Source: Rhodoferax sp. (lineage in GTDB: Bacteria; Pseudomonadota; Gammaproteobacteria; Burkholderiales; Burkholderiaceae_C). Taken from it: a stretch of DNA of 64,000 bases. The position numbers were made by a program, and so were the translations under genes. The stretch is taken from NCBI RefSeq assembly GCF_030646845.1, contig NZ_JAUSLE010000069.1, forward strand, positions 1-64,000, read 5' to 3'. Below the pieces are notes generated by a model, which had not been told where the DNA came from, ran no database searches, and saw only the letters and a list, made by a program, of their open reading frames with translations. How positions within the stretch are numbered: position 1 is the first letter of the stretch; each line of letters starts with the position of its first letter. This document shows, one piece after another, positions 137-39,442 of the stretch.

Positions 137-199
137 TCAACTTAATGTATACCGCAAAATCTGCGGAATAATCTGGGCATCGCGGGATAAACTGGTCAT
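137..199 (-). CDS. 20-residue peptide gene, copy A of a two-member leader family
   Basis: The ORF reads MTSLSRDAQIIPQILRYTLS and stop. It has a strong ribosome binding site (AGGAGGA at 204-210) five bases before the ATG. It is homologous to the 20-codon ORF at 39380-39442, with the same length, 11 of 20 identical residues and by my count 47 of 63 identical bases. The RBS context is also shared: both have the word TCTCAGGAGGA just before the start. Several differences are conservative (D/N, A/V, Y/F), which suggests that the peptide is selected. A terminator follows directly. I know of no function. It could be a stand-alone microprotein or an attenuator leader for a gene beyond position 1. Confidence 0.6.
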   Translation of the reverse strand: MTSLSRDAQIIPQILRYTLS

Positions 200-334
200 G
201 AAATCCTCCTGAGAGTGGCTTGTAGCCTTGGTTTGCGCAGTTTTATTGGGTTTTTATACAAGTGTAAAACGTCCGATAAACCCCGCAGATATTTTGAAAT
301 CGATTCTAGGCTTCAAACAAGCTGATTTCTAAAT
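200..334 (-). promoter_or_regulatory. Promoter/5' region of the 20-codon gene
   Basis: No gene is visible here. On the minus strand the tract is AT-rich relative to its surroundings and contains TTTATC, 16 bp, then TATAAA, a plausible sigma-70 pair about 65 bp before the ATG. The word CAAGCCA before the RBS is shared with the region in front of the integron leader ORF (39356 onward). Promoter elements are inferred only. Confidence 0.35.
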
Positions 335-430
335 TTGGGGTGCGTTTCGAAAGGCCGCTCCCGCTGCATCAGAGGCATTCAAGCCCTGCCCAGTTTCCCC
401 TTCATCGACGCCCATCCTTGCCAACCCCTC

Positions 431-467
431 GATGAATTGCCGGGCGACCAGCGCCCGGCAATTCATC
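431..467. terminator. 16-bp perfect inverted repeat after the TrpB2 gene
   Basis: GATGAATTGCCGGGCG (431-446) is perfectly repeated in inverse at 452-467 around a 5-base loop. It starts three bases past the stop codon of the gene at 470-1840. There is no T-run on the minus strand, so it may be a rho-independent-like barrier or a 3'-end stabilising hairpin. Confidence 0.55.
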
Positions 468-469
468 CA

Positions 470-1840
470 TCAGGCCGGTTCCGGCACGCTCGGCAGCCCT
501 TCCAGGGCCATGGCCAGTTCACGTTCGTCATAGCTTTCGTCGGACAGTTCCCCTGCAAAATATTTTTGGTAGGAGGTCATGTCGAAGTGGCCATGGCCGG
601 ACAGGCAGAACAGGATGTTCTCCGCTTTGCCCTCGCGCTTGCAGCGCAGGGCTTCTTCGATGGCGCCCTTGACGGCGTGGTTGGCCTCAGGCGCGGGCAC
701 GATGCCTTCGTTGCGCGCAAACAGCACACCGGCTTCAAAGCACTCCACCTGGTTGTAGGCCACGGCTTCGATCAGGCCCAGTTCCTTGCAGTGCGACACC
801 AGCGCCGCCATGCCGTGGTAGCGCAAGCCGCCGGCATGAAAACCGGGCGGTGTGAACTGGCTGCCCAGGGTGTGCATTTTGGTGAGCGGCGTCATGCCTG
901 CGGTGTCGCCAAAATCATAGGCGTACTTGCCGCGCGTGAGTGACGGACAGGCGGCGGGCTCTACCGCCACAATGCGCGACTTCTCGCCCCCCCGCAAACC
1001 ATGGCCGATGAAGGGGAAGGCAATGCCCGCAAAGTTGGAGCCGCCACCGGCGCAGCCAATGACCACATCCGGCCAGGCGTCGGCCATCTTCATCTGCTCC
1101 ATCGCCTCCTGCCCGATGACGGTCTGGTGCAGCAGCACGTGATTCAGCACCGAGCCCAGTGCGTACTTGGTGTCTTCACGCTGCACAGCCAGCTCCACTG
1201 CTTCGGAAATTGCAATGCCCAGACTGCCGGGATGGTTGGGGTTCTTGGCCAGCACCGAGCGCCCAAATGCTGTCTCATTGGAGGGCGACGCCACACAGCG
1301 TGCACCGTAGGTCTCCATGACGGCGCGCCGGTAAGGCTTCTGGTCATAAGAGACCCGCACCTGGAACACTTCGACCTCCAGACCGTACAGCGAACCGGCA
1401 AACGCCAGCGAGGTACCCCACTGCCCGGCACCGGTCTCAGTGACCAGCCGCTTGACCCCGGCTTCCTTGTTGTAGAAGGCCTGCGGCACAGCCGTGTTGG
1501 GCTTGTGGCTGCCAGCGGGGCTGACACCTTCGTATTTGTAATAGATTTTGGCCGGTGTGCCGAGCGCCTTTTCAAGTCGATGGGCACGGAACAACGGCGC
1601 GGGCCGCCACAGACGATACACATCGCGCACGGGCTCAGGAATCTCGATCTCGCGCTCCTGGCTCACCTCTTGCATGATTAAAGCCATGGGGAAAAGCGGC
1701 GCCAGGTCGTCCGGGCCGACCGGCTGCAAGGTGCCCGGATGCAACACCGCGGGCGCTGCCTTGGGCAAGTCCGCCTGAATGTTGTACCAGAACCGTGGCA
1801 TCTGGTTTTCTTCCAAAAGATACTTCGTCTGCATGCTCAT
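470..1840 (-). CDS. trpB: TrpB2-type tryptophan synthase beta chain (PLP-dependent)
   Basis: The 456-residue product belongs to the long TrpB2 subgroup of the tryptophan synthase beta family, a fold-type II PLP enzyme that joins indole and serine. The PLP-lysine region appears as GVSPAGSHKPNTA, the substrate region as ETGAGQWGTS and the phosphate-binding loop as CAGGGSNFAG. Canonical TrpB is about 400 residues; TrpB2 is longer, as here. The start at 1840 is chosen because GGAG lies seven bases upstream; the frame stays open much further but without family similarity. No trpA is adjacent, so the enzyme may act as a stand-alone indole scavenger or serine deaminase-like enzyme (inference). It is divergent from metY. 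Confidence 0.9.
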   Translation of the reverse strand: MSMQTKYLLEENQMPRFWYNIQADLPKAAPAVLHPGTLQPVGPDDLAPLFPMALIMQEVSQEREIEIPEPVRDVYRLWRPAPLFRAHRLEKALGTPAKIYYKYEGVSPAGSHKPNTAVPQAFYNKEAGVKRLVTETGAGQWGTSLAFAGSLYGLEVEVFQVRVSYDQKPYRRAVMETYGARCVASPSNETAFGRSVLAKNPNHPGSLGIAISEAVELAVQREDTKYALGSVLNHVLLHQTVIGQEAMEQMKMADAWPDVVIGCAGGGSNFAGIAFPFIGHGLRGGEKSRIVAVEPAACPSLTRGKYAYDFGDTAGMTPLTKMHTLGSQFTPPGFHAGGLRYHGMAALVSHCKELGLIEAVAYNQVECFEAGVLFARNEGIVPAPEANHAVKGAIEEALRCKREGKAENILFCLSGHGHFDMTSYQKYFAGELSDESYDERELAMALEGLPSVPEPA

Positions 1841-1962
1841 AAATGCTCCAGAGTGAAATTGAAATGCACGAGGGGATGCCAAAGCGGCGGCACACAGTAT
1901 GCACGAGCGCATGACGGACAGATATGAAGATATGAATTCTCTGTCTATGAAACATGCAGGTT

Positions 1963-1979
1963 GGCAATCTAAGATTGCC
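1963..1979. promoter_or_regulatory. Perfect palindrome GGCAATC-TAA-GATTGCC upstream of metY
   Basis: Two 7-bp arms (1963-1969 and 1973-1979) flank TAA. The palindrome ends 23 bp before the metY ATG, inside the 162-bp divergent region shared with the TrpB2 gene. It could be an operator for a dimeric regulator or a short RNA hairpin in the metY leader. It does not match the MetR or MetJ consensus as I know them. Confidence 0.5.
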
Positions 1980-2002
1980 GCTTTTGAACAGGGAAACATC
2001 TC

Positions 2003-3280
2003 ATGAAAATTGAAACCATTGCCGTGCATGGTGGCTACACGCCTGACCCCACCACCAAAGCCGTGGCGGTGCCGATTTACCAGACCGTCGCCTACGCGTT
2101 TGACAACACGCAGCATGGCGCTGATCTGTTTGACCTGAAAGTGGCAGGCAACATTTACAGCCGCATCATGAACCCCACCAACGCGGTGCTGGAAGCCCGC
2201 GTGGCGGCGATGGAGGGCGGCGTGGGCGCACTGGCTGTGGCCTCGGGCATGTCGGCCATTGCGTATGCCATTCAAACCATCACCGAGGCGGGCGACAACA
2301 TCGTGTCGGCGTCCACACTCTACGGCGGCACTTACAACCTGTTTGCCCACACCTTCCCGCAGATGGGCATTGAGGTGCGCTTTGCAGACTACCGCGACCC
2401 GGCCTCCTTTGCCAAGTTGATTGATGCCCGCACCAAGGCCGTGTTTTGCGAAACCATTGGCAACCCGATGGGCAACATCACGGACCTGGCCGCGCTGGCC
2501 GCTGTGGCCCATGCCCATGGCGTGCCACTGATTGTGGACAACACGGTCGCAAGCCCGTATCTGTGCCGCCCGTTCGAGCATGGCGCCGATATCGTGGTGC
2601 ACTCGCTGACCAAATACCTGGGCGGCCACGGCACCACCCTTGGCGGCATCATTGTTGACTCCGGCAAGTTCCCGTGGGCGGAGCACAAGGAACGCTTCAA
2701 GCGCCTCAACGAACCCGATGTGAGTTACCACGGCGTGGTCTATACCGAAGCACTCGGTGCCGCCGCCTACATCGGGCGGGCCCGCGTGGTGCCCCTGCGC
2801 AACATGGGCGCGGCCTTGAGCCCCATGAATGCATTCCAGATACTGCAGGGCATTGAAACGCTGGCCTTGCGCATGGACCGCATTTGTGACAACGCGCTGC
2901 GTGTGGCAAAACATCTGCAGTCCCACGCCAAAGTGGGCTGGGTCAACTACGCCGGCCTGCCCGACCATGCAGACCATGGCCTGGTGCAGAAATACCTGAG
3001 TGGCCGCGCCTCGGGCATCATCAGTTTCGGTCTCAAGGCCAGCGACAGCCTGGAGGCCGGTGCACGTTTTCAGGATGCGCTCAAGCTGTTCACCCGGCTG
3101 GTCAACATCGGCGACGCCAAATCACTGGCCTGCCATCCAGCGTCCACTACGCACCGCCAGCTCAACCCGGCCGAGCTGGCGAAGGCGGGCGTGAAACCGG
3201 ACATGGTGCGGCTGTCCGTCGGCATCGAACACATTGACGATCTGATTGAAGATCTGGACCAGGCGCTGGCCGCCGTCTGA
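2003..3280 (+). CDS. metY: O-acetylhomoserine sulfhydrylase
   Basis: The 425-residue product is a Cys/Met-metabolism PLP enzyme of the MetY (O-acetylhomoserine aminocarboxypropyltransferase) type, which makes homocysteine directly from O-acetylhomoserine and sulfide in the cytoplasm. The PLP lysine is K204 in HSLTKYLGGHG, and the conserved SRIMNPT and ASGMSA segments are present. The length matches MetY (about 425-430) rather than the shorter MetB/MetC enzymes (about 390). GGGAAA before the ATG serves as RBS. A perfect palindrome lies just upstream and a strong terminator follows at 3365. Confidence 0.93.
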   Translation: MKIETIAVHGGYTPDPTTKAVAVPIYQTVAYAFDNTQHGADLFDLKVAGNIYSRIMNPTNAVLEARVAAMEGGVGALAVASGMSAIAYAIQTITEAGDNIVSASTLYGGTYNLFAHTFPQMGIEVRFADYRDPASFAKLIDARTKAVFCETIGNPMGNITDLAALAAVAHAHGVPLIVDNTVASPYLCRPFEHGADIVVHSLTKYLGGHGTTLGGIIVDSGKFPWAEHKERFKRLNEPDVSYHGVVYTEALGAAAYIGRARVVPLRNMGAALSPMNAFQILQGIETLALRMDRICDNALRVAKHLQSHAKVGWVNYAGLPDHADHGLVQKYLSGRASGIISFGLKASDSLEAGARFQDALKLFTRLVNIGDAKSLACHPASTTHRQLNPAELAKAGVKPDMVRLSVGIEHIDDLIEDLDQALAAV

Positions 3281-3364
3281 GTTCGTGTGACTGTCCAATA
3301 CAGCGCAGGATCAATTTTGGCAAGTCAGATAAGCAACAAACTCAGTGACTGAACCGCACTACGG

Positions 3365-3391
3365 AAAGCCCCTTGACCGGGGCTTTTTTTT
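3365..3391 (+). terminator. Rho-independent terminator after metY
   Basis: AAAGCCCC and GGGGCTTT form an 8-bp stem around TTGACC, followed by an unbroken T-run. It separates metY from the prkA operon. Confidence 0.9.
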
Positions 3392-3498
3392 ATCTTAGAT
3401 TTGTCTGCAACCAATATCCGGAAAAATAATCATAAGACCAGCCGTTTGAGAAAAATCGTTTCACCCCGGTGAGACGCACCAATCAAAGGAGAGTCAAC

Positions 3499-5421
3499 AT
3501 GAATGTCTTCGCGCGGTATCAGGGGCGGTTTGTGGCCGCCCAGGAAGAGGAGATGTCGATCCAGGATTACCTGGAGCTCTGCAAGCGTGATCCTGCCGCC
3601 TATGCCAGCGTGGCCGAACGAATGCTGATGGCCATTGGCGAACCCGAACTGATAGACACCCGCAGCGAACCCCGGCTGTCGCGCATTTTTGCCAACAAGA
3701 TGCTCAGGCGCTATCCCGCTTTTCGCGACCTCTATGGCATGGAGGAAGTCATTGAGCAAATCGTCTCCTACTTCCGGCACGCCGCGCAGGGCCTGGAGGA
3801 AAAAAAACAGATCCTGTACCTGCTCGGCCCGGTCGGTGGCGGCAAGTCGTCGCTGGCGGAAAAGCTCAAGTACCTGATTGAGATGGTGCCGATTTATGCG
3901 ATCAAGGGCTCGCCGGTACACGAATCCCCCCTGGGCCTGTTCAACCCCATGGAAGACGCCCAGTTGCTGGAAGACGACTTCGGAATTCCGCGGCGCTACC
4001 TCGGCACCATCATGAGTCCCTGGGCCGTGAAACGGTTGCATGAGTTTGGGGGCGACATCACTCGTTTTCGGGTGGTCAAGCTGCGCCCGTCCGTCCTCTC
4101 GCAAATCGCGGTGTCCAAAACCGAACCGGGCGACGAGAACAACCAGGACATCTCCTCCCTGGTGGGCAAGATTGACATACGCAAACTGGAAACCTATTCA
4201 CAAAGCGACCCGGACGCGTACTCCTACTCGGGTGGCCTGTGCCTGGCCAATCGTGGTGTGCTGGAATTCGTGGAGATGTTCAAGGCACCCATCAAGGTAC
4301 TGCATCCGTTGCTGACCGCAACGCAGGAGGGCAACTACAAAGGCACCGAAGGGTTCGGTGCGATTCCGTTTGACGGCATGGTGCTGGCCCACTCCAACGA
4401 GGCTGAATGGCTGAGCTTCAAGAACAACCGCAACAACGAAGCGTTTCTTGACCGGATCTACATCGTCAAGGTACCCTACTCCTTGCGTGTATCAGACGAG
4501 ATTCATATCTACGAAAAACTGTTGGCCAACTCCTCGCTGGCCAAGGCCCCTTGCGCACCCGACACGCTCAAGATGATGGCGCAGTTCTCCGTGCTGTCGC
4601 GTTTGAAGGAGCCGGAAAACTCCAGCATCTTCTCCAAGATGCGGGTGTATGACGGCGAGAACCTCAAGGATACCGACCCCAAGGCCAAGAGCTACCAGGA
4701 GTACCGCGATTTCGCAGGCGTCGATGAAGGCATGACGGGGCTGTCTACCCGGTTTGCCTTCAAGATTCTCTCCCGGGTGTTCAACTTTGACCACCGCGAA
4801 GTGGCGGCCAATCCGGTGCACCTGATGTATGTGCTGGAGCAGCAGATTGAGCAGGAGCAGTATCCGGCCGAGGTGGCCGACCGGTACATGCGCTACCTCA
4901 AGGAATACCTCTCGCCCCGTTACGCCGAATTCATCGGCAAGGAAATCCAGACCGCCTACCTGGAGAGCTACTCGGAGTATGGCCAGAACATCTTCGACCG
5001 TTACGTGACCTACGCCGACTTCTGGATTCAGGATCAGGAATACCGCGACACCAACACGGGCGAGATCCTGGACCGTGGCGCACTCAACAGCGAACTCGAA
5101 AAGATCGAGAAACCGGCCGGCATCTCCAACCCGAAAGACTTTCGCAATGAGGTGGTCAACTTCGTGTTGCGTGCCCGGGCCAAGAACGACGGCCAGAACC
5201 CGGCCTGGACCTCTTACGAAAAGCTGCGTGCCGTCATCGAGAAAAAGATGTTCTCCAACACCGAGGAATTGCTGCCGGTTATTTCGTTCACCACCAAGGC
5301 CAGCGGCGACGAGCAGAAGAAGCACAAGGATTTCGTAAACCGCATGATCAGCAAAGGCTATACCGAGAAGCAGGTGCGCCTGCTGTGCGAGTGGTACTTG
5401 CGGGTGCGCAAGTCATCCTAG
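3499..5421 (+). CDS. prkA: PrkA/YeaG AAA+ serine protein kinase
   Basis: The 640-residue product matches the PrkA/YeaG family, an N-terminal AAA+ ATPase module followed by a PrkA kinase-like C-terminal domain. The Walker A motif GPVGGGKSS is at about residues 110-118. In enterobacteria YeaG works with YeaH in stationary-phase and nitrogen-starvation stress, and a protease-like activity has been proposed for the Bacillus protein. The ATG at 3499 is chosen because AAAGGAG lies at the right distance; an in-frame start 30 bases earlier has no RBS. It heads a three-gene operon with yeaH and spoVR. The 200-bp gap upstream after the metY terminator must hold the promoter; I could not identify its sigma class. 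Confidence 0.93.
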   Translation: MNVFARYQGRFVAAQEEEMSIQDYLELCKRDPAAYASVAERMLMAIGEPELIDTRSEPRLSRIFANKMLRRYPAFRDLYGMEEVIEQIVSYFRHAAQGLEEKKQILYLLGPVGGGKSSLAEKLKYLIEMVPIYAIKGSPVHESPLGLFNPMEDAQLLEDDFGIPRRYLGTIMSPWAVKRLHEFGGDITRFRVVKLRPSVLSQIAVSKTEPGDENNQDISSLVGKIDIRKLETYSQSDPDAYSYSGGLCLANRGVLEFVEMFKAPIKVLHPLLTATQEGNYKGTEGFGAIPFDGMVLAHSNEAEWLSFKNNRNNEAFLDRIYIVKVPYSLRVSDEIHIYEKLLANSSLAKAPCAPDTLKMMAQFSVLSRLKEPENSSIFSKMRVYDGENLKDTDPKAKSYQEYRDFAGVDEGMTGLSTRFAFKILSRVFNFDHREVAANPVHLMYVLEQQIEQEQYPAEVADRYMRYLKEYLSPRYAEFIGKEIQTAYLESYSEYGQNIFDRYVTYADFWIQDQEYRDTNTGEILDRGALNSELEKIEKPAGISNPKDFRNEVVNFVLRARAKNDGQNPAWTSYEKLRAVIEKKMFSNTEELLPVISFTTKASGDEQKKHKDFVNRMISKGYTEKQVRLLCEWYLRVRKSS

Positions 5422-5454
5422 GGCAGGGCCGGATGAACTGAACGGGAGCCTCAC

Positions 5455-6723
5455 ATGACGGTGCGGATCATCGACCGCCGGTTCGACAGCAAGCACAAGA
5501 GCTCGGTCAATCGCGGGCGCTTCATTGATCGTTTCAAGGGGCAGATTCGCAAAGCCGTCGCCGACGCCATCAACAAGCGCGGCATTCGCGACATCGAGAA
5601 CGACGAAAAGATTGGCATCCCCGGCAAAGACATCGCAGAGCCCCAGTTTGAACAGGGGCGCGGTGGCGTCTGGGAGACCGTGCGTCCCGGCAATGATCGC
5701 TTCAGCAGCGGCGACCAGGTCGACCGGCCCCAGGGCGGAGCCGGTGGACAGGGCAAGGGACAGGCCAGCCAGGACGGTGAGGGCCTGGACGAGTTCCTCT
5801 TCACCCTGACCAAAGATGAATTTCTGGACATCTTCTTCGATGAGCTGGCCCTGCCGCACCTCGTCAAACAGCATCTGGCCCATGTCGAGCAGTACCGCCG
5901 GGTGCGCGCTGGCTACACGCAGAGCGGCGTGCCCACCAACATCAACCTGGCGCGCACCATGCGCGGGGCCGCAGGACGACGCATTGCGGTGGGCGGCCCG
6001 TATGCAGCCCAGTTGCGCGCGTTGATGGCCGAGCTGGATGAAAAAAAGAACAAGCTGGCTGACGATGACCCCGAGCTGGAACGCCTGCGCCGCGAGATTG
6101 TCCGCCTGCACGCCAAGATGGACAAGGTTCCGTTCGTGGATTCATTCGATCTGCGCTACACCAACCGCATCCGGGTGCCCCAGCCCAGCACGCAGGCGGT
6201 GATGTTCTGCCTGCTCGACGTCTCGGGGTCGATGGACGAGAGCCGCAAGAACATCGCCAAGCGGTTCTTCATGTTGCTCTATCTCTTTCTCACCCGCAAT
6301 TACGAACGCATCGATGTCGTGTTCATCCGCCACCATACCGTGGCCAGCGAGGTCGATGAGGATGAATTCTTCACGTCGCGTGAATCGGGCGGCACCGTCG
6401 TCTCCAGCGCTCTGGAGCTCATGCACAAAATCATCACCGATCGCTATCCGAGCAGCCAGTGGAACATCTATGGGGCACAAGCGTCGGATGGTGACAACTG
6501 GAACGATGACTCCCCACGTTGCCGCGAACTGCTGGAACAAAAGCTGCTGCCGCTCACACAGTACTTTGCCTACATAGAGATCACGGAAGGGCCACCGCAG
6601 AACCTGTGGGAGGAGTACACCAAACTGGAAACCGCCCACGGCGATCACTTTGCGATGCGCCGCATCGCCACGGTGGCCGATATCTACCCCGTGTTTCGCG
6701 ATCTCTTCAAACGACAGGTCTAG
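5455..6723 (+). CDS. yeaH: YeaH/YhbH family protein (DUF444, von Willebrand A-like)
   Basis: The 422-residue protein is the usual partner of PrkA. The N-terminal half is charged and glycine/glutamine-rich. The C-terminal half is a von Willebrand factor A-like domain with the metal-site motif DVSGSMDES near residues 255-263. YeaG and YeaH are functionally linked in E. coli; the biochemical role of YeaH is unsettled. It begins 33 bases after prkA and is followed after 7 bases by spoVR, so the three genes are probably co-transcribed. Confidence 0.92.
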   Translation: MTVRIIDRRFDSKHKSSVNRGRFIDRFKGQIRKAVADAINKRGIRDIENDEKIGIPGKDIAEPQFEQGRGGVWETVRPGNDRFSSGDQVDRPQGGAGGQGKGQASQDGEGLDEFLFTLTKDEFLDIFFDELALPHLVKQHLAHVEQYRRVRAGYTQSGVPTNINLARTMRGAAGRRIAVGGPYAAQLRALMAELDEKKNKLADDDPELERLRREIVRLHAKMDKVPFVDSFDLRYTNRIRVPQPSTQAVMFCLLDVSGSMDESRKNIAKRFFMLLYLFLTRNYERIDVVFIRHHTVASEVDEDEFFTSRESGGTVVSSALELMHKIITDRYPSSQWNIYGAQASDGDNWNDDSPRCRELLEQKLLPLTQYFAYIEITEGPPQNLWEEYTKLETAHGDHFAMRRIATVADIYPVFRDLFKRQV

Positions 6724-6730
6724 GCTCAAC

Positions 6731-8269
6731 ATGGCGCAAAAAAAACCCGCTACCCCCCTGCCGGTCGGGTCCGAGTGGACTTTTTTGGCGCTTGAGCAAT
6801 ACGACAAGGCCATCGGCCGTGTGGCCGCCGACTACCAGCTGGATTGCTATCCCCATCTGCTGGAAGTCATCAGTGCCGAGCAGATGATGGACGCCTACGC
6901 TTCCATTGGCATGCCGGTGTATTACAACCACTGGTCTTTCGGCAAGCATTTTCTGGCCACGGAGAACCGCTACAAGCGCGGCCAGATGGGCCTGGCCTAC
7001 GAAATCGTCATCAATTCCAGCCCCTGCATCGCCTACCTGATGGAGGAGAACACCCTGCCCATGCAGGCACTGGTCATCGCCCATGCCGCCTACGGCCACA
7101 ACTCCTTCTTCAAGGGCAACCACCTGTTCAAACAGTGGACCAGCGCCGATGCCATCATCGACTACCTCGTATTTGCCAAGCAGTTCATCGCCCGCTGCGA
7201 AGAGCAGCACGGTGTGAGGAGCGTAGAGCGATTGCTGGATGCCTGCCATTCCCTGCTGAATCTGGGGGTTGACCGGTTCAAGCGCTCGCCCAAGCTCTCG
7301 TTGGCAAAAGAGGCGCTGCGGCAAAAAGAACGCGCGGACTACCTCCAGGCCCAGGTCAATGACCTGTGGCGAACCCTGCCGCCCCACATGGAGGTGGGTG
7401 AAGCTGAACACGAAACACGGTTTCCGGCGGAACCCGAAGAGAACCTGCTCTACTTCATTGAAAAGAACGCGCCCTTGCTGGAGCCCTGGCAACGGGAAGT
7501 CATCCGCATTGTGCGCAAGATCGGGCAGTACTTCTACCCGCAGCGCCAAACCCAGGTCATGAACGAAGGCTGGGCATGCTTCTGGCATTACACGCTGCTC
7601 AACACGCTCTATGACGAGGGCGCGCTGTCAGACGGCTTCATGCTGGAGTTCCTGCAGTCGCACACCAATGTGGTGTACCAGCCGCCCTACAACAGCCCCC
7701 ACTACTCAGGCATCAACCCTTACGCGCTGGGGTTTGCCATGTGGCGGGACATTCGCCGCATCTGCGAACAACCCAGCGCTGAAGACCGCGAGTGGTTTCC
7801 CGACATCGCCGGCTCAGACTGGCGTGAGACCTTTGAGTTTGCCATGCAGAACTTCAAGGACGAGAGCTTCATCGCCCAGTATCTCTCGCCCCAGCTGATG
7901 CGCGAGTTCCGCTTCTTCTCGGTGCTTGACGACGACGCCCGCGAGAAGCTGCAGATACAGGCGATTCATGACGACAGCGGCTACCGGGCCTTGCGCCTCC
8001 AGCTCTCTGACCAGTACAACCTGGGCAGTCGCGAACCCAATATCCAGGTCTGGAACGTGGACCTGCGCGGCGACCGGTCCTTGACCCTGCGCCACTATGC
8101 CCACCTGCGCCGGCCACTGGATGAATCCAGCAAAGCGGTGCTGGAGCACGTGGCCTACCTGTGGGGTTTCACGGTGCGACTGGAGAGCGAAGACAACGAC
8201 GGCCGGGTCACCCTGATTGCCGAGCGCATGCGCGAAAGGCGCACCGGCCACGCGGGAGCCGGCCCCTGA
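6731..8269 (+). CDS. spoVR: SpoVR family protein (YcgB)
   Basis: The 512-residue product is a full-length SpoVR/YcgB homologue. In Bacillus the family affects spore cortex formation; in non-sporing proteobacteria it is a stress protein of unknown activity, usually encoded with prkA and yeaH as here. Family hallmarks visible are the EVIRIVRKIGQYFYPQ and MNEGWACFWHYTL segments and the SPHYSGINPYALG stretch. The ATG at 6731 follows the yeaH stop by seven bases with only a weak RBS, which suggests translational coupling. An upstream in-frame extension overlaps yeaH and is rejected. Confidence 0.92.
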   Translation: MAQKKPATPLPVGSEWTFLALEQYDKAIGRVAADYQLDCYPHLLEVISAEQMMDAYASIGMPVYYNHWSFGKHFLATENRYKRGQMGLAYEIVINSSPCIAYLMEENTLPMQALVIAHAAYGHNSFFKGNHLFKQWTSADAIIDYLVFAKQFIARCEEQHGVRSVERLLDACHSLLNLGVDRFKRSPKLSLAKEALRQKERADYLQAQVNDLWRTLPPHMEVGEAEHETRFPAEPEENLLYFIEKNAPLLEPWQREVIRIVRKIGQYFYPQRQTQVMNEGWACFWHYTLLNTLYDEGALSDGFMLEFLQSHTNVVYQPPYNSPHYSGINPYALGFAMWRDIRRICEQPSAEDREWFPDIAGSDWRETFEFAMQNFKDESFIAQYLSPQLMREFRFFSVLDDDAREKLQIQAIHDDSGYRALRLQLSDQYNLGSREPNIQVWNVDLRGDRSLTLRHYAHLRRPLDESSKAVLEHVAYLWGFTVRLESEDNDGRVTLIAERMRERRTGHAGAGP

Positions 8270-8283
8270 GGGGACTGTCAAGA

Positions 8284-8438
8284 TGCAGACCGGCACCTCG
8301 CTGCTGCACATTCCGTACCGCGGTACCGCAACGGCTGGCGGTGCTGCCCGATGTACCCACGGTGGCCGCAAGCTGATTCAGCGCGAGATCGAGCGCTGGA
8401 AACCTGTGATTCAATCGGGGCGCGTGAAGGCAGATTGA
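8284..8438 (+). pseudogene. Collapsed remnant of a Bug/TctC-type binding protein gene
   Basis: Three short pieces of a tripartite-tricarboxylate/Bug periplasmic binding protein survive in family order but in different frames. They are TGTSLLHIPYRGTA (8284-8330), then RLAVLPDVPTVA (about 8332-8368), then LIQREIERWKPVIQSGRVKAD-type C-terminal residues ending at the stop 8436-8438. An intact family member in this window (10263-11240) has the corresponding segments IVPFNGTP, AAILPDVPT and LASEIKRWGDVI. About 250 residues are missing, so at least two internal deletions occurred. It cannot make a working protein. Confidence 0.8.
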
Positions 8439-8467
8439 GAAGAATCAACAAAGGCGCTAGCGAGAAA

Positions 8468-28709: not shown

Positions 28710-28720
28710 GACACCTGCCC

Positions 28721-30457: not shown

Positions 30458-30462
30458 GCACC

Positions 30463-31428: not shown

Positions 31429-31488
31429 GCGCACTGTCGGCCACGGCGCCACTCTCCCGGGTGGCAGGCCTGGCCCGGCATCCGGAAT

Positions 31489-31514
31489 AGACAGGCCAGG
31501 CCTGTCTTTTTTTT
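31489..31514 (+). terminator. Rho-independent terminator after the HxlR-like gene
   Basis: GACAGGCC and GGCCTGTC form a stem directly followed by eight T residues. It lies about 60 bases after the stop codon. Confidence 0.9.
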
Positions 31515-31633
31515 GAGGCTGCTCTTCAGGCCACTGCCCCTGCGCATGCACCACCCGTATAAATGGGATGTGGTGGTCAACTGGCATAATTTCAGGTTTT
31601 CTGGGTGTTGCCCTTGTCAAGCGAGCGCACCCA

Positions 31634-31650
31634 GCTATCTATTTAATAGC
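31634..31650. repeat. Palindromic core of the dispersed repeat upstream of the FKBP gene
   Basis: GCTATCTATTTAATAGC, preceded by GCGCACCCA, matches the TGCGCA..GCTA half of the ~45-bp repeat. It ends 16 bases before the FKBP start codon and so lies in its 5' untranslated region. Confidence 0.45.
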
Positions 31651-31666
31651 ACACAAGGATTGCATC

Positions 31667-32020
31667 ATGACTACCACCCCCTCCGGCCTGCAATATGAAG
31701 ACACTGTTATCGGCACTGGTGCCGAAGCAACCAAGGGCAAAAGCGTCACCGTTCACTACACCGGCTGGCTCTACAACGACGGCGTTCAAGGCGCCAAGTT
31801 TGACTCCAGCAAAGACCGTGGCGATCCGTTTGTCTTTTCGCTTGGCGCCGGTATGGTGATTCGCGGTTGGGACGAAGGCGTGGCAGGCATGCTGGTTGGC
31901 GGCGCGCGCACCCTGATCATTCCGGCCGCACTGGGCTATGGCGCTCGCGGCGCGGGCGGTGTGATCCCCCCCAACGCAACCTTGAAGTTCGACGTCGAGC
32001 TGCTCGGCGTAGCCGGCTGA
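31667..32020 (+). CDS. FKBP-type peptidyl-prolyl isomerase
   Basis: The 117-residue product is a single FKBP domain with no signal peptide, so it is cytoplasmic. Conserved FKBP elements are [44 protein letters not shown] and the C-terminal [13 protein letters not shown]. The start at 31667 has AAGGA upstream. It directly precedes the heat-shock operon. Confidence 0.93.
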
Positions 32021-32086
32021 ACGTCCCCGCTGACTTCTTCCCCAGATAAGCGCGTCTCCAGTCGCCCGGATTCCTGTCCGGGTGCA

Positions 32087-32114
32087 CTTGAATTGCCATC
32101 GTATGCCCCCATTT
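32087..32114 (+). promoter_or_regulatory. Sigma-32 (heat-shock) promoter of grpE
   Basis: CTTGAA at 32087-32092 and CCCCATTT at 32107-32114 are separated by 14 bases. This matches the RpoH consensus (CTTGAAA, 13-15 bases, CCCCATnT) almost perfectly. It is 35 bases before the grpE ATG. Confidence 0.85.
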
Positions 32115-32148
32115 CGGTGGCGTACAACTTGAAATTTGGCTCACTAGC

Positions 32149-32709
32149 ATGTCTGAAACCAATCCAAACCAAACCAACCCAATGCCTGCGGGCTACCAGA
32201 GCACCGAGGAAATGGTCGCGGCCCAGGCGATGAACGAGTCCGACGCCCTGTCAAAAGCGCAGGCCGATCTGGCTGAATTGCAGGCCAAAAGCGCCGAGCT
32301 GGCCGACCAGTTCCTTCGGGCCAAGGCCGAGGCCGACAACGCCCGCCGCCGCGCCGAAGAAGAAATCTCGAAGGCCCGCAAATTTGCGGTGGAGAGCTTC
32401 GCTGAAAGCCTGCTGCCCGTGGCGGACAGTCTGGAAGCCGGCCTGGTGATCAAGGACGCCACCATCGAGCAGATCCGCGAAGGCGCGCAAGCCACCCTGC
32501 GTCAACTGGTCGCGGCGCTGGAGCGCAACAAGGTGATCGTCATCAACCCGGCCGCTGGCACCAAGTTCGACCCGCATCAACATCAGGCCATCAGCGTGGT
32601 GCCGTCGGAGCACGAAGCCAACACGGTGGTCACGGTGCTGCAAAAAGGCTATTCGATCGCGGACCGCACGCTGCGTCCGGCCCTCGTCACGGTAGCCGCG
32701 CCGAAATAA
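32149..32709 (+). CDS. grpE: Nucleotide exchange factor GrpE
   Basis: The 186-residue protein has the GrpE plan: a polar N-terminus, a long coiled coil of helices (about residues 35-85, [20 protein letters not shown]) and a beta-rich domain ending in [17 protein letters not shown]. It releases ADP from DnaK in the cytoplasm. It is the first gene of grpE-dnaK-dnaJ. Confidence 0.95.
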
Positions 32710-32721
32710 TCACTATTGCGA

Positions 32722-32737
32722 CTTGAAATATTTCGAG
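32722..32737. promoter_or_regulatory. Near-perfect palindrome upstream of dnaK
   Basis: CTTGAAATATTTCGAG is symmetric except for one pair and lies in the 68-bp grpE-dnaK gap. Its left half looks like a sigma-32 minus-35 element, but no CCCCAT follows at the right distance, so I cannot call a promoter. It does not match the CIRCE element. Confidence 0.3.
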
Positions 32738-32777
32738 TTATCCACAAGTTCAAAACATCTAAAAACTGGAGTAAATC

Positions 32778-34727
32778 ATGGGAAGAATTATCGGTATTGA
32801 TCTGGGCACCACCAACAGCTGCGTGGCCATCATGGAGGGCAACACGCCCAAGGTCATCGAGAACTCTGAAGGTGCGCGCACGACGCCGTCCATCATTGCT
32901 TATCAGGAAGACGGGGAAGTGCTGGTCGGTGCATCGGCCAAGCGCCAGGCCGTGACCAACCCCAAGAACACGCTGTACGCGGTGAAGCGCCTGATTGGTC
33001 GCAAGTTCGCCGAAAAGGAAGTCCAGAAAGACATCGATCTGATGCCCTACAAGATCGCCGCCGCTGACAATGGCGATGCCTGGGTCGAAGTGCGCGGCAA
33101 CCGCATGGCCCCCCAGCAGGTCAGCGCCGACGTGCTGCGCAAGATGAAGAAGACCGCCGAAGACTATCTCGGCGAAGAAGTGACTGAAGCCGTCATCACG
33201 GTGCCGGCCTATTTCAACGACGCGCAGCGTCAGGCTACCAAAGATGCCGGCCGAATTGCCGGCCTGGATGTCAAGCGCATCATCAACGAGCCGACCGCCG
33301 CAGCCTTGGCCTACGGTATGGACAAGAATGAAAAGGGTGACCGGAAGATCGCCGTTTATGACTTGGGCGGCGGCACGTTTGACGTGTCCATCATCGAGAT
33401 CGCCGACGTTGACGGCGAGAAGCAGTTCGAAGTGCTCTCCACCAACGGCGACACATTCCTGGGTGGCGAAGACTTTGACCAACGCGTCATCGACTACATC
33501 ATTGCCGAGTTCAAGAAAGAGCAAGGCGTTGATCTGGGCAAGGACGTGCTGGCCCTGCAGCGCCTGAAGGAAGCCGCTGAAAAAGCCAAGATCGAGCTGT
33601 CCAGCAGCGCGCAGACTGACATCAACCTGCCCTACGTGACCGCTGATGCCTCTGGTCCCAAGCACTTGAACATCAAGCTGACTCGCGCCAAGCTGGAGTC
33701 CCTGGTTGAAGAGCTGATCGAGCGCACGATTGCTCCGATCCGCACCGCGCTCAAGGACGCCGGTGTCAGCGCATCTGACATTGATGACGTCATTCTGGTC
33801 GGCGGCATGACCCGCATGCCCAAGGTGCAGGAGAAGGTCAAAGAGTTGTTTGGCAAAGAGCCGCGCAAGGACGTGAACCCCGACGAAGCCGTGGCCGTGG
33901 GCGCCGCCATTCAAGGCCAGGTGCTGTCCGGTGACCGCAAGGACGTGTTGCTGCTCGACGTGACGCCTCTGAGCCTGGGTATTGAAACCATGGGCGGTGT
34001 CATGACCAAGATGATCACCAAGAACACCACAATCCCGACCAAGTTTGCACAGACCTTCTCGACGGCTGAAGACAACCAGCCCGCTGTGACGATCAAGGTG
34101 TTCCAGGGTGAGCGCGAAATCGCCGCCGGCAACAAGATGCTGGGCGAGTTCAACCTGGAAGGCATTCCGCCATCTGCCCGCGGCACGCCACAAATTGAAG
34201 TGTCGTTTGACATCGACGCCAACGGCATCTTGCATGTCGGCGCCAAGGACAAGGGCACCGGCAAGGAAAACAAGATCACCATCAAGGCGAACTCCGGTTT
34301 GACCGAAGCTGAAATCCAGCAAATGGTGAAGGATGCCGAACTCAACTCGGCCGAAGACAAGAAGAAGCTGGAACTGGTACAGGCCAAAAACCAGGCGGAC
34401 GCCAGCTTGCACAGCGTCAAGAAGAGCCTGACCGAATACGGCGACAAGCTCGAAGGCGACGAGAAAGCCAAGATCGAAGAGGCGATCAAGCATCTCGAGG
34501 AAGCCATCAAGGGCGACGACAAGGCGCACATTGACGAAAAGAGCACCGCTCTGATGACGGTCAGCCAGAAGCTGGGCGAGAAGATGTATGCCGATCAGCA
34601 AGCCAAGGAAGCCGCGGCGGCTGGCGCTGGCGATGCGGGTGCCGCAGGCGCCGCGCAGGGGGCTTCTGCCCAAGCCGATGACGACAACGTGGTCGACGCG
34701 GAAGTGAAAGAAGTGAAGAAGGGCTAA
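32778..34727 (+). CDS. dnaK: Chaperone DnaK (Hsp70)
   Basis: The 649-residue protein is a full-length Hsp70. [16 protein letters not shown] is at the N-terminus, [16 protein letters not shown] is the second phosphate motif, and the interdomain linker reads [15 protein letters not shown]. The C-terminus has the acidic [15 protein letters not shown] tail after an alanine/glycine-rich stretch. It folds and protects cytoplasmic proteins with DnaJ and GrpE. Confidence 0.97.
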
Positions 34728-34767
34728 GCCCTTGCGCTAAACACTGTTCTGAACACTGTTATCAGGC

Positions 34768-34800
34768 GCCGCGTTGAACACCTCAAATGTTCAACGCGGC
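34768..34800. terminator. 13-bp perfect hairpin between dnaK and dnaJ
   Basis: GCCGCGTTGAACA and TGTTCAACGCGGC pair perfectly around CCTCAAA and are followed only by GTTTG. It may partly terminate transcription so that dnaK exceeds dnaJ, or may protect the dnaK mRNA. Confidence 0.65.
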
Positions 34801-34830
34801 GTTTGTATTGAAACCGGGCACTGAGAGACC

Positions 34831-35964
34831 ATGGCTAAAAGAGACTATTACGAAGTTTTGGGTGTTCCCAAGAACGCCTCGGACGAAGAGATCAAAAAGG
34901 CCTATCGCAAACATGCGATGAAGCATCACCCTGACCGAAATCAGGGCGAGTCCTCCAAAGCGGCCGAGGAGAAATTCAAGGAGTCCAAGGAAGCCTACGA
35001 GATGCTGTCGGACCCGCAAAAGCGCGCGGCCTACGACCAGCACGGCCATGCCGGTGTCGACCCCAACATGCGGGGCGGACCGGGCGGCGAAGGCTACGGT
35101 GGATTCGCGGAAGCCTTTGGTGACATTTTTGGTGACATGTTTGGTCAGCAGCGCGGTCGCGCCGGGGGCGGACGACAAGTGTTTCGTGGCGGCGACCTGA
35201 GCTATGCCATGGAGGTCACGCTGGAAGAAGCCGCCCGGGGCAAGGATGCCCAGATCCGCATCCCCAGCTGGGACGCGTGCGACACCTGCCACGGCAGTGG
35301 CGCCAAACCGGGCACCCAGGCCAAGACCTGTGGCACCTGCAGCGGCTCGGGCGCGGTACAGATGCGCCAGGGGTTTTTCAGTGTGCAGCAAACCTGTCCC
35401 ACCTGCCGCGGAACCGGCAAGGTGATTCCCGAGCCCTGTACGGCATGCCAGGGGCAAGGCAAGATCAAAAAACAGAAAACCCTGGAAGTCAAGATCCCCG
35501 CCGGCATCGATGGCGGCATGCGCATTCGCAGCGCCGGCAACGGCGAGCCTGGCACCAATGGCGGCCCGGCGGGTGACCTGTACATCGAAATCCGCCTCAA
35601 GAAACACGACATCTTTGAGCGCGATGGCGACGACATCCATTGCTCGGTGCCCATCAGCATCGTCGCCGCCTCCCTGGGTGGCGAAATTGAGGTGCCCACA
35701 CTGGCCGGCAAAGCCGCCATCGATATCCCTGAAGGCACACAAACCGGCAAGCAATTCCGGCTGCGTGGCAAAGGCATCAAGGGTGTGCGCTCCAGCTATC
35801 CCGGTGATCTGTACTGCCACATTTCGGTGGAGACACCCGTCAAACTGACCGAGCACCAGCGCAAGCTGCTGCGCGAGCTTGACGAATCCCTTAAAAAGGG
35901 CGGTAGCAAGCATTCGCCCAGTGGCGACAGCTGGACCAATCGGTTGAAGAGCTTTTTCAGTTGA
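34831..35964 (+). CDS. dnaJ: Chaperone DnaJ (Hsp40)
   Basis: The 377-residue protein is a type I DnaJ. The J domain has HPD in HHPDRNQG near residue 34. A glycine-rich linker follows, then four zinc-finger repeats ([32 protein letters not shown]) and the C-terminal substrate-binding domains. It stimulates the DnaK ATPase and delivers clients. Confidence 0.97.
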
Positions 35965-36001
35965 CGAATGTCACGTAGCGTCAGAAAAAGTGACGCCCAG
36001 G

Positions 36002-36042
36002 AATGCCGCGAAGAATTTAAACGACTTCGCGGCATTTTTTTT
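36002..36042 (+). terminator. Rho-independent terminator after dnaJ
   Basis: AATGCCGCGAAG (36002-36013) and CTTCGCGGCATT (36024-36035) form a 12-bp stem followed by a T-run to 36042. It ends the heat-shock operon. Confidence 0.93.
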
Positions 36043-36086
36043 GTGCATCATGGCGCCATGACATCAATAAAACGAAATCTATCAGC

Positions 36087-37451
36087 ATGAGCGTCAGCAT
36101 TACCTTTCTGGGCGGCACCGGCACCGTCACTGGCTCCAAGTATCTAGTGCGCCACGATGGCAAGTGCCTGCTGGTGGACTGCGGCCTGTTCCAGGGCTAC
36201 AAACTGCTTCGCCTGCGCAACTGGACCCCGTTGCCGATCGCGCCGGACCAGATTGACGCAGTCCTGCTGACCCACGCCCATCTGGACCACAGCGGCTACC
36301 TGCCCCTGCTCGCCAAAGAGGGCTTCTCGCGCCATGTGTACGCCACCCCCGGCACGCGGGACCTGTGCCGCATCCTGCTGCCCGACAGCGGGCACATTCA
36401 GGAAGAAGATGCAGAGTTTGCCAACCGCCACGGCTTCTCCAAACACGCGCCCGCCCTGCCCCTGTATACACGGCAAGATGCGCTGGATTGCCTGCACTTG
36501 TTGAAGGCGGTTGAGGTCGGCAAAAGCTTTGCGCCCATCCCGGGCTGGCGGGCCACCTTCTCGTCCGCCGGGCACATCCTGGGCGCGGCCAGTGTGCTGC
36601 TGGAAGTGGCCGGACGACGCATTCTGTTCTCGGGCGATCTGGGCCGGCCCGATGACCTGATCATGAATCCGCCCGACGATGCCCCGGCGGCGGACACCGT
36701 ATTGATCGAGTCCACCTATGGCGACCGCGAGCATCCCGAGGAAGATGTGCTTGCCGAGTTGGGGCCCGCCCTGAAGAAAGTGGCCAAGCGCGGCGGCGTG
36801 GCGGTAGTCCCGGTGTTTGCGGTGGGACGCGCGCAGGCCCTGCTGCATGCCATCCGCCTGCTGAAAGCCCGTGGCGATCTGCCCAAGTCGCTCCCCGTCT
36901 TTCTGGACAGTCCCATGGCGGTCAACACCACCCATTTGTTTGAACACCATCTGGGAGAGCACCGGCTCAACAAGAGGGATGCGCAGGCACTGACGCGCTC
37001 GGCCACCATGGTCAGCAGTACCGATGAGTCGCGTGCCCTGGCACAGCGGCACGGGCCCATGGTGATTCTGTCAGCCAGCGGCATGGCCACCGGCGGGCGC
37101 GTGTTGCATCACCTCGCCCTCTACGCCGGCGATCACCGCAACATGATCATCCTGACCGGCTTCCAGGCGCCTGGCACACGCGGCGCTACCCTGGCCAGTG
37201 GCGAGAAATCCGTGCGCATTCATGGGCGGGATGTGGAGGTCAACGCCGAAGTCGTGCAGTTGCAGTCGGCCTCAGCGCACGCCGATGCCAGCCAGGTCCT
37301 GGCGTGGCTGCGCACCATGCCCCAGGCGCCCGACCAGGTCTATGTGGTTCACGGTGAAATGGGCGCCGCTGATGAACTCCGCAAGCGCATCAAGCATCAA
37401 CTGGGCTGGCGCGCCACAGTGCCGGAACACGGATCCACCTGGCCCACCTGA
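36087..37451 (+). CDS. Metallo-beta-lactamase/beta-CASP RNA-processing nuclease homologue
   Basis: The 454-residue protein has the metallo-beta-lactamase motif THAHLDHSGYLP near residues 68-79, a beta-CASP insert with SASGMATGGRVLHHL, and the C-terminal SAHAD and VVHGE motifs. This is the CPSF-73-like/YsH1 family, whose members cleave RNA; bacterial members such as Thermus TTHA0252 are endo/exoribonucleases. All metal ligands look intact. It is probably co-transcribed with the small membrane-protein gene six bases downstream. Confidence 0.9.
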   Translation: MSVSITFLGGTGTVTGSKYLVRHDGKCLLVDCGLFQGYKLLRLRNWTPLPIAPDQIDAVLLTHAHLDHSGYLPLLAKEGFSRHVYATPGTRDLCRILLPDSGHIQEEDAEFANRHGFSKHAPALPLYTRQDALDCLHLLKAVEVGKSFAPIPGWRATFSSAGHILGAASVLLEVAGRRILFSGDLGRPDDLIMNPPDDAPAADTVLIESTYGDREHPEEDVLAELGPALKKVAKRGGVAVVPVFAVGRAQALLHAIRLLKARGDLPKSLPVFLDSPMAVNTTHLFEHHLGEHRLNKRDAQALTRSATMVSSTDESRALAQRHGPMVILSASGMATGGRVLHHLALYAGDHRNMIILTGFQAPGTRGATLASGEKSVRIHGRDVEVNAEVVQLQSASAHADASQVLAWLRTMPQAPDQVYVVHGEMGAADELRKRIKHQLGWRATVPEHGSTWPT

Positions 37452-37457
37452 GGCAAC

Positions 37458-37985
37458 ATGAATAAATTTTTCCGGAAATACTTCGAGTTTGCCGCCGGTA
37501 CTACGCCGCTGATCGTCACCTTCATCGGTGTCGTGGTCATGATGCTGCTGGTGTTTCCGGCGCTACCGGTCAACGGCGAGTTGATCGATCTGAAGCTGCA
37601 ATACACCCTGGCCGATATCCAGGTGGCAATGCTGCAATACGGCGCAGAAGGCCGCGCCGTCTACGCGCTGGCCAGCCCCACCGTGGACACCCTGTTTCCT
37701 GTGCTGTACGTGACTTTTTTTGCCGGCCTGATCTACCGCTTTCGCCCCGCAGAGCGCCTGTGGGTCATGGCATTCATCCCGGTTTTTGCGGGCCTCTGGG
37801 ATCTGTGTGAGAACGCACAAATCACCGCGATGCTGCTGCAGTTCCCGGACATCTCGGCCAGCCAGGTGGGCGTGGCGTCTTTCTTCACCACCGTCAAACA
37901 CATCCTGAGTGCGGTCTACGAACTGACCGCCGTGGTGTTTTTGCTCATGTTCCTGGTACGCCGCCTCAAAAAGGGCTTTGTCTAG
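37458..37985 (+). CDS. Membrane protein of unknown function, about four TM segments
   Basis: The 175-residue product has four hydrophobic segments, near residues 15-35, 75-92, 100-118 and 147-167, and a basic C-terminus (RRLKKGFV). I recognise no family. It starts six bases after the nuclease gene. Its last four bases overlap the 3' end of the convergent radical SAM gene at 37982. Confidence 0.75.
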   Translation: MNKFFRKYFEFAAGTTPLIVTFIGVVVMMLLVFPALPVNGELIDLKLQYTLADIQVAMLQYGAEGRAVYALASPTVDTLFPVLYVTFFAGLIYRFRPAERLWVMAFIPVFAGLWDLCENAQITAMLLQFPDISASQVGVASFFTTVKHILSAVYELTAVVFLLMFLVRRLKKGFV

Positions 37986-39070
37986 AACAGGTCGCCCTGC
38001 CCGGCCAATAGCGCGCTGCGAAACTGGCTCACATCGAGCTCCACCCGTTCCCGGTTCATGCCCAGCCGGGCGCAGGTCTTCTCAAAACGCTGCCGAATCA
38101 GATCGGCCCACAGCCCGTGGCCTTTCATGCGCGAGGCAAAGTCGCTGTCGTAATCTTTGCCGCCACGCATCTCCTGGATGCGCGCCATTACCCGCGCGGC
38201 ACGCTGCGGGTAATGCAAGGCCAGCCATTCCTGAAACAAGGGGTTCAGCTCCCAGGGCAGGCGCAGCACCGTGTAGAAAGCGCTGCGCGCACCGGCCTCG
38301 TAAGCGGCTGCCAGCACCTGCTCCATGTCATCATTGATGAACGGGATTTGCGGAGCCACACTCACGCCCACCGGCACACCGGCCGCCGCCAGCGTGCGAA
38401 TGATGCGCAGGCGCCGGTGCGGTGCCGCAGCTCGCGGCTCCAGCTTGCGGGCCAGCTCGCCATCCAGTGTGGTGATGGTGACGTAAACCGCGGCCAGCTT
38501 GCGCGCGGCCATTGGCGCCAACAAGTCCAGATCACGCTCGACGCCACTGCCTTTGGTCACCAGCGCCAGCGGGTGATGGCAACTGTGCAGAAGCTCCAGT
38601 ACGCTGCGGGTGATGCGCAGCTCGCGCTCCAGCGGTTGATAGGCATCAGTGGCCGAGCCAATGACGATTTGCTTGGGCACATAGCTGCGCGCACTCAACT
38701 CACGTGCCAGCACGGCAGCCAGATTGCGCTTGGCGATGATCTTGGTTTCAAAGTCCAGCCCGGGAGACAAGTTCAGGTAACTGTGCGTCGGCCGCGCGTA
38801 GCAGTACACACAACCATGCTCGCAACCCCGGTACGGATTGAGCCCGTAGTCAAAGTGAATGTCGGGCGAGTCGTTGCGGGAGATGGCGCTTTTGGCATCT
38901 TCCAGCGTCACCTCGGTGGCCAGGGGCTGCGGCCCATCGGGCGTGAATTCTTGCAGCGTGCCCCAGCCATCGTCAAACGCGTCGCGCTCCACCGATTCGA
39001 ATCGATGCGCCAGGCGCGTGGCGGCACCCCGGCCTTTGATGGCATGGAGGGGGATGGCCGTTACGTTCAT
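37982..39070 (-). CDS. PA0069-type radical SAM protein (spore photoproduct lyase-like)
   Basis: The 362-residue protein has the radical SAM cluster motif CEHGCVYCYARP (CxxxCxxC) and the following SPGLDFETKI segment typical of PA0069 and Rv2578c-type SPL-like proteins. The function is unknown; DNA repair is sometimes assumed. The ATG at 39070 starts a normal N-terminus (MNVTAIPLHAIKGRGA). A TTG 27 bases upstream reaches the dispersed repeat and is rejected. Confidence 0.87.
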   Translation of the reverse strand: MNVTAIPLHAIKGRGAATRLAHRFESVERDAFDDGWGTLQEFTPDGPQPLATEVTLEDAKSAISRNDSPDIHFDYGLNPYRGCEHGCVYCYARPTHSYLNLSPGLDFETKIIAKRNLAAVLARELSARSYVPKQIVIGSATDAYQPLERELRITRSVLELLHSCHHPLALVTKGSGVERDLDLLAPMAARKLAAVYVTITTLDGELARKLEPRAAAPHRRLRIIRTLAAAGVPVGVSVAPQIPFINDDMEQVLAAAYEAGARSAFYTVLRLPWELNPLFQEWLALHYPQRAARVMARIQEMRGGKDYDSDFASRMKGHGLWADLIRQRFEKTCARLGMNRERVELDVSQFRSALLAGQGDLF

Positions 39071-39083
39071 AAGAAATCTGCCG

Positions 39084-39127
39084 CTAGCCCACGTCAAATA
39101 TGCCTAGTTAGCTACTAAACCAATAGC
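39084..39127 (+). repeat. Dispersed ~45-bp repeat, full copy R3, at the integron edge
   Basis: It begins CTAGCCCACGTCAAATATGC and ends with GCTACTAAACCAATAGC. It sits between the radical SAM gene and the surviving integrase fragment, exactly where integrase similarity stops. Confidence 0.65.
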
Positions 39128-39303
39128 AAACTGGTTGTATCCCTGATGCTGCAATTGGCCATTGCGCCCTGACCAGCCAATGTAAGAACGTACCCAATAC
39201 ACGTAGCCCTACTCGGTGCTGAAGCTATAGTGCAGGTACGAATGGGTTCGCGAACCTGATCCATCAGGCGGACAGAGCGCAACGGGGCAGTGCCGGGTTT
39301 CAT
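39128..39303 (-). pseudogene. intI: Truncated, frameshifted integron integrase (intI) fragment
   Basis: From the ATG at 39303 the minus strand reads MKPGTAPLRSVRLMDQVREP and then IR, close to the N-terminus of IntI-type tyrosine recombinases (IntI1 has [21 protein letters not shown]). A one-base shift then gives LHYSFSTE, a stop codon where glutamine is expected, then GYVYWVRSYIGW. IntI1 has [20 protein letters not shown] at the same place. Similarity ends before the repeat at 39084-39127, so about 270 C-terminal residues with all catalytic residues are missing. There is one frameshift, one nonsense mutation and one large deletion. Confidence 0.85.
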
Positions 39304-39316
39304 GGTTTGCTTATAC

Positions 39317-39332
39317 CTGTATTTTTGTACAG
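39317..39332. promoter_or_regulatory. LexA (SOS) box of the integrase promoter
   Basis: CTGTATTTTTGTACAG is a perfect CTGT-N8-ACAG site. It lies 14 bases upstream of the dead integrase start codon, as in integrons whose integrase is SOS-regulated. Because it lies in the divergent region it may also affect transcription toward the cassettes. Confidence 0.8.
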
Positions 39333-39379
39333 TATATTTGATGCCAATCCAAACTGCAAGCCATTCTCAGGAGGAATTC

Positions 39380-39442
39380 ATGACCGTCTTATCCCGCAAC
39401 GTCCAGATTAATTCGCAAGATTTGCGGTTTGAATTACGTTAA
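39380..39442 (+). CDS. 20-residue leader peptide at attI, copy B of the leader family
   Basis: The ORF reads MTVLSRNVQINSQDLRFELR and stop, with AGGAGGA at 39370-39376 as RBS. It is homologous to the ORF at 137-199. Its last codons and stop (CGT TAA) overlap the recombination core GTTAAC at 39438, so ribosomes terminate at the crossover and could restart at the first cassette ATG five bases later (39448). Class 1 integrons have a comparable short ORF in attI1 that boosts translation of the first cassette. Here the parallel is inferred. Confidence 0.65.
   Translation: MTVLSRNVQINSQDLRFELR

Follow-up and report, generated by a model that had tools for sequence, protein, structure and literature searches.

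Two short reading frames of a Rhodoferax genome as probable attI sites overlaid by a leader with a cassette-supplied stop

The stretch of DNA analysed here (the window) comprises 64,000 nucleotides of a Rhodoferax sp. contig and contains two homologous open reading frames of 20 codons, one (copy 2) at the head of an integron cassette array and the other (copy 1) apparently alone. The question is what such a pair of frames represents. An earlier note on this DNA proposed either an undescribed peptide or leader family or a host promoter-RBS-leader module recruited by the integron to drive its cassettes. The reading favoured here, with a probability of about three in four, is that both frames are attI sites of one family, in which the DNA recognised by the integrase is overlaid by a translated leader whose peptide is dispensable.

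Two frames ending at a recombination crossover

Copy 1 is located at 137..199 on the minus strand and copy 2 at 39380..39442 on the plus strand, their translations being MTSLSRDAQIIPQILRYTLS and MTVLSRNVQINSQDLRFELR, each followed by a stop. The two agree at 47 of 63 bases and 11 of 20 residues and have a common ribosome-binding site, with the Shine-Dalgarno sequence CAGGAGGA at 204..211 (minus) in copy 1 and at 39368..39375 (plus) in copy 2, so that the homology and the common RBS described earlier stand. Among 2000 random 63-mers of the window, compared on one strand and ungapped, the best had 28 bases in common with copy 1. Copy 1 with its upstream sequence, used as a DNA query against its own draft genome (4,348,213 bases), retrieved copy 2 with E = 1.1e-15, and the common RBS context followed by ATG occurs exactly twice in that genome in a pattern search. 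The R1 model matches both copies, at 139-268 (minus, 100.6 bits) and at 39311-39440 (plus, 88.2 bits). The hexamer TAGAAT at 303..308 (minus) is a candidate -10 of a Pc promoter for copy 1, and alignments place it in many class B relatives. A search of the window against Rfam gave no family at either frame; its two matches elsewhere in the window were a cobalamin riboswitch and a 6S RNA, at 57247-57483 (minus) and 59142-59321 (plus).

In well-preserved copies of this sequence the frame reads into ...ATTACG^TT, beyond which the sequence varies from copy to copy. Copy 1 ends in the core GTTGAAC at 135..141 (minus), with G^TT at 141-139, and this core gives the stop TGA; in copy 2 the crossover falls within the last sense codon, CG^T, and the stop TAA is contributed by the cassette. 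Since each frame ends at the cassette crossover G^TT, the stop codon is supplied by the cassette core GTTRRRY. A GTT was identified at the expected place in 122 of 144 sites with a 58-nt spacing, and a stop made by the cassette in 91 of these 122 junctions, the other 31 having none. The 51 solitary junctions with GTT follow GTTRRRY closely (R in 47, 43 and 43, Y in 45). Cassettes join at G^TT with GTTRRRY, and intI adjoins the site in intact platforms, as it does at neither window copy. By this geometry both frames are identified as attI sites of one homologous family. The earlier placement of copy 2 at an integron attI is borne out, and copy 1, which had been taken for a separate solitary gene, appears to be an attI site as well.

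Each frame contains two direct repeats and one inverted repeat, probable IntI-binding sites, at 152..188 (minus) in copy 1 and at 39394..39427 (plus) in copy 2. The three repeats covary among the 144 sites, being CC/CC/CC in 43 and GA/GA/GA in 28, and 12 of the 15 best covarying column pairs fall among the six repeat positions (by mutual information, which ignores kinship), as would happen if one protein bound at all three. On the best explanation, the DNA within the frame owes its conservation mainly to recognition by the integrase, at a site formed by the three repeats and ending at G^TT. A reading of CCGCA...TGCGG as an RNA hairpin was set aside, the upstream direct repeat changing with both arms as binding sites would. 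Two loci (L049, 6030-6140, and L074, 6679-6788) present a frame shortened from 58 to 39 nt, which looks like a deletion of the DNA between the direct repeats.

The repeat types may correspond to residues of the integrase. In an alignment of 21 IntI, all five adjacent to GA-type sites carry Y and D at two nearby columns and six of the eight adjacent to CC-type sites carry F and E at the same columns (the other two being gapped), in a small sample where four of the five GA-type IntI belong to one clade. Two further columns also separate the groups. The pairing was seen at L045, L065, L046, L143, L150, L228, L237 and other loci, and a recognition code in which F..E and Y..D follow CC and GA repeats is possible.

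Distribution of the family and of its integrases

The further homologues in related genomes on which the earlier note had made its proposal depend were found. Copy 1 as a DNA query gave matches in 31 of 148 genomes, its own included. A sequence model of 130 positions, derived from 33 copies, matched 52 of 89 genomes of the genus (E <= 0.01), at least 95 of 399 genomes and at least 52 of 141 genera of the taxonomic family (E <= 0.001), and 5 of 300 sampled genomes of the order (E <= 1e-5), one of the latter being the own genome and the other four weak. Among the matches listed there are up to seven in one genome (G039 in the genus, G388 and G469 in the family), and the matches of one genome may lie far apart on a single large contig, as in contig C1 of G370. 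The fetched part of the matches came from 168 sources and comprised 107 and 69 sites, 176 in all, of which one duplicate was removed to leave 175. The relatives include a Burkholderiales metagenome-assembled genome.

Copy 1 with its upstream sequence, compared by blastn with 72,556 plasmids, matched one record, Polaromonas sp. JS666. This site lies at 4990-5099 of locus L207 on the conjugative plasmid 1 (NC_007949.1), with no annotated feature beneath it and the next gene beginning shortly after. Some loci contain two or three sites in tandem, in the same orientation and 1.2 to 2.2 kb apart: L197 (2796-2927, 4295-4424, 6455-6584), L196 (8016-8146, 9253-9380) and L260 (977-1109, 2766-2897).

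Four sites with a short upstream sequence were left out, and the remaining 171 were classified as having a whole-length intI (14), a partial one (41) or none detectable (116), where a site was scored as having none if no tblastn hit at 1e-3 had its end within 320 nt; by this definition the intI-start motif is still seen in 5 of the 116. Where present, intI is divergent and starts slightly upstream of the frame. The whole-length genes are free of stops and at least 900 nt long in 13 cases, the other (L047) having an internal deletion, and three adjoining IntI reach 444 to 451 bits with TIGR02249, for which the cut-off is 265. An intI above this cut-off was identified in 16 of 89 genomes of the genus; of 27 family genomes picked mainly for having several sites, 12 contained one and 15 did not. 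The partial matches begin within the first three aligned residues in 33 of 41 cases, and the visible direction is therefore decay from integron to solitary site.

CTG-N10-CAG was identified in 11 of 14 sites with full intI, 23 of 41 with partial intI and 24 of 116 with none; a Pc-like -10, under a loose definition, in 14 of 14, 32 of 41 and 74 of 116. A frame open from ATG or GTG to the junction is present in 14 of 14 sites beside intI and in 73 of 116 solitary ones, so some solitary sites are decaying. Contexts shorter than 1200 bases were excluded from the attC counts. The attC test is symmetric, so that the reverse strand provides no control, and the upstream stretch served as one. Within 2.5 kb downstream, at threshold 9, an attC was found in 31 of 102 solitary sites (38 attC over the 102), 17 of 37 with partial intI and 6 of 11 with full intI, versus 0 of 56, 1 of 22 and 0 of 6 upstream. 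Thresholds 8 and 10 gave 36 and 23 of 102 solitary sites downstream, and 1 and 0 of 56 upstream. The remaining 71 of the 102 solitary sites had no attC within 2.5 kb by this home-made finder at threshold 9.

The upstream flanks form 77 clusters for 101 sites (the first 107 sites were used), the largest being intI itself. Among 15 aligned solitary sites the most related subset is homologous over about 230 bases upstream of the start, where the homology breaks off. Downstream, six sites (L141, L148, L167, L191, L059 and L169) continue into one common sequence that starts at the attI junction or close to it and may be a further element targeting the site.

Leader, peptide or bare recombination site

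The distance from start to crossover is 58 nt in 144 of 175 sites, and the coding counts were made on these, the other 31 being left out. An ATG or GTG start was identified in 129 of the 144 and an SD-like motif in 123, a motif that a control stretch shows in 4 of 144. In frame, stops interrupt 8 of the sequences, compared with 62 and 32 in the two alternative frames. A first ORF with a length of 60 residues or more starts no further than 30 nt from the junction at 126 of 168 sites, compared with 54 of 130 at a control position. The constant length may instead reflect the spacing of binding sites.

Under a tree-aware null that keeps the column profiles about 32 sequences with stops in frame would be expected, the other frames being unremarkable, and the P value for a frame kept open was 0.055 or 0.005 depending on the rate setting (143 ORFs, one identical ORF being excluded) and 0.08 for the first 90. 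The two settings bracket the observed Fitch total of 959, giving 824-911 and 1107-1144 in three simulations each. Retention of the start codon in 90 ORFs was not above this null, into which the start-codon profile is already built. Codon positions 1, 2 and 3 vary alike, with entropies of 0.935, 1.006 and 0.935 in the 144 homologues and Fitch changes of 283, 334 and 306 in the 143 distinct ORFs. Because of these P values and this equal variation, the evidence for a frame kept open is moderate, and nothing speaks for selection on its residues.

The best surviving alternative is a pure attI site, the ORF being a by-product of site and RBS with no use in the translation of cassettes. The covarying repeats account for much of the conservation, codon-position bias is absent and stop avoidance is borderline in one null setting, all as this alternative would have it. 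The frequent SD-like motif and start codon and the scarcity of in-frame stops count against it, because a recombination site alone needs none of them, and it is considered rather improbable.

A true family of peptides or leader peptides, under selection for their residues, is much less probable still. The 11 identical residues of the window copies and recurrent residues such as Q9, V14, L15 and T18 in 90 ORFs would agree with it. The substitutions between the copies, described earlier as protein-like, do not: codon positions 1, 2 and 3 take 6, 6 and 3 of the 15 differences, and of the 10 codons that differ all but one change the residue. The frame moreover terminates at a recombination crossover. 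Of the proposed peptide or leader family the homologues are real, and as a peptide family it fails by a refuting condition that the earlier note itself had set, given the equal codon-position variation of the 144 homologues.

Recruitment of a host gene by the integron is very improbable: the 116 sites without detectable intI make a solitary origin imaginable, but solitary copies likewise end at GTTRRRY-like junctions, 31 of 102 are followed by attC, the partial intI mostly retain their beginning and the upstream flanks are diverse. The leader lies inside the recombination site and 13 of 171 sites adjoin a stop-free intI, while the earlier wording of a promoter-RBS-leader module driving cassettes remains a fair description.

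The reading of attI sites overlaid by a leader would work as follows. A Pc-like promoter, a strong Shine-Dalgarno sequence and an ATG or GTG would be overlaid on the recombination site, and the leader frame would be phased so that the GTTRRRY of an incoming cassette gives the stop (T+RR, core bases 3-5). Ribosomes loaded on the leader would then stop at the cassette edge and might begin again there on the gene of the first cassette, the leader peptide itself being dispensable.

The two loci and the platforms without integrase

At copy 2 a frame-broken 5' remnant of intI is present at 39093..39303 (minus), with its start codon at 39303; by tblastn it matches IntI residues 11-55 (47 bits), and the three-frame view contains stops. 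Between remnant and leader lies a LexA-like box, CTGTATTTTTGTACAG, at 39317..39332 (plus), the LexA consensus being CTGT-N8-ACAG. The first three gene cassettes occupy 39438..40847 (plus) with attC ends at 39838, 40452 and 40847 and finder scores of 14, 11 and 10; a finder with strict GTTRRRY gave none in the window and its replacement gave these three. The array seems, by eye, to extend beyond 41,300. The own genome has no TIGR02249 match above the cut-off of 265, the best being 79.5 bits. The best explanation is that copy 2 still heads a cassette array though its intI has decayed.

At copy 1 the DNA beyond the core belongs to another element. Window positions 1..134 (minus) align with the end of an IS91-family element in locus L055, 117 of 132 aligned bases being identical, and the genes of that element match Phage_integrase, Zn_Tnp_IS91 and Y2_Tnp. 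As in IS91-family elements in general, genes for a Y2 transposase and a zinc-binding domain stand behind the shared element end in L055; unlike in them, the transposase is preceded by a tyrosine recombinase gene, and GTTGAA(C/T), in the present case the attI core, stands before the element end. The assignment thus comes from L055, the window ending inside the element, which is truncated at copy 1 because the contig itself starts with the first base of the window. General knowledge of IS91 and ISCR elements, like the idea of a Pc promoter, is taken here as background.

The same element end is found at an attI in L160 and away from any attI in L100, and L038 has clearly in common with it only the hairpin part. 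It comes after GTTGAA(C/T) in L055 (6164), L100 (1348), L045 (3564) and L160, at attI and away from it; this motif could be the chosen target or part of the element. The terminator that copy 1 had been credited with exists as a hairpin (91-123), which matches the end of the IS91-family element, and an attenuator formed by leader and terminator was dropped on that account. Because 1..134 matches the element end in L055, what had looked like a solitary gene with its terminator is an attI into which an IS91-family element has inserted, and the best explanation of copy 1 is an attI that lacks an integrase and is broken at its crossover.

The nearest known counterpart is ORF-11 of the class 1 attI1. 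According to the review PMC8876359, this is a short ORF with its own SD that overlaps the crossover and takes its stop from positions 3-5 of the cassette GTTRRRY; SD and start matter and the residues hardly. The window frames would be an ORF-11-like leader of chromosomal integrons: they too have their own SD and start in or just before attI, a cassette-supplied stop and a peptide that the sequence pattern suggests is unimportant. They differ in having 20 codons instead of 11, in an unrelated sequence and in occupying chromosomal sites mostly without an adjoining intI. No homology to attI1 was found, the sole record matched by copy 1 among the 72,556 plasmids being no class 1 integron.

With three attC and intI reduced to a remnant, the copy 2 array might qualify as a CALIN (at least two attC without a nearby intI). 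CALINs are cassettes without a nearby integrase, and mobilisation in trans has been proposed for them in PMC12444791; attC alone defines them, whereas the sites described here retain an attI at their head, together with a leader and a Pc-like promoter. The layout agrees with that of sedentary chromosomal integrons: intI divergent from attI, a LexA-like box between them and cassettes behind. The textbook view of these, as given in PMC9024848, assigns a single attI to each integrase, unlike the several sites per genome, among the matches listed, and few integrases found here. The same paper describes attI outside class 1 as poorly described and undetected by IntegronFinder 2.0.

The abundance of attI platforms without integrase was unexpected and is the new point over the known ORF-11-type leader; no description of dispersed solitary attI sites was found in searches of an open-access library. 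Tentatively, and at somewhat less than even odds, integrase-free Pc-attI platforms would form a dispersed network in many genomes of this Burkholderiales family, with as many as seven in a genome; each would be able to dock and express cassettes with an integrase acting in trans, now or in the past, and would have its leader stop completed by the cassette; at least two types of repeat specificity would track integrase residues (F..E versus Y..D).

Such sites can be located with a profile for one widespread attI family, and the ORF-11 arrangement, on the sequence pattern, also occurs outside class 1, in a family where most sites have no adjoining integrase. Cassettes without an integrase gain a testable origin and route of expression, and the family as a whole provides a data set for the recognition code between integrase and attI.
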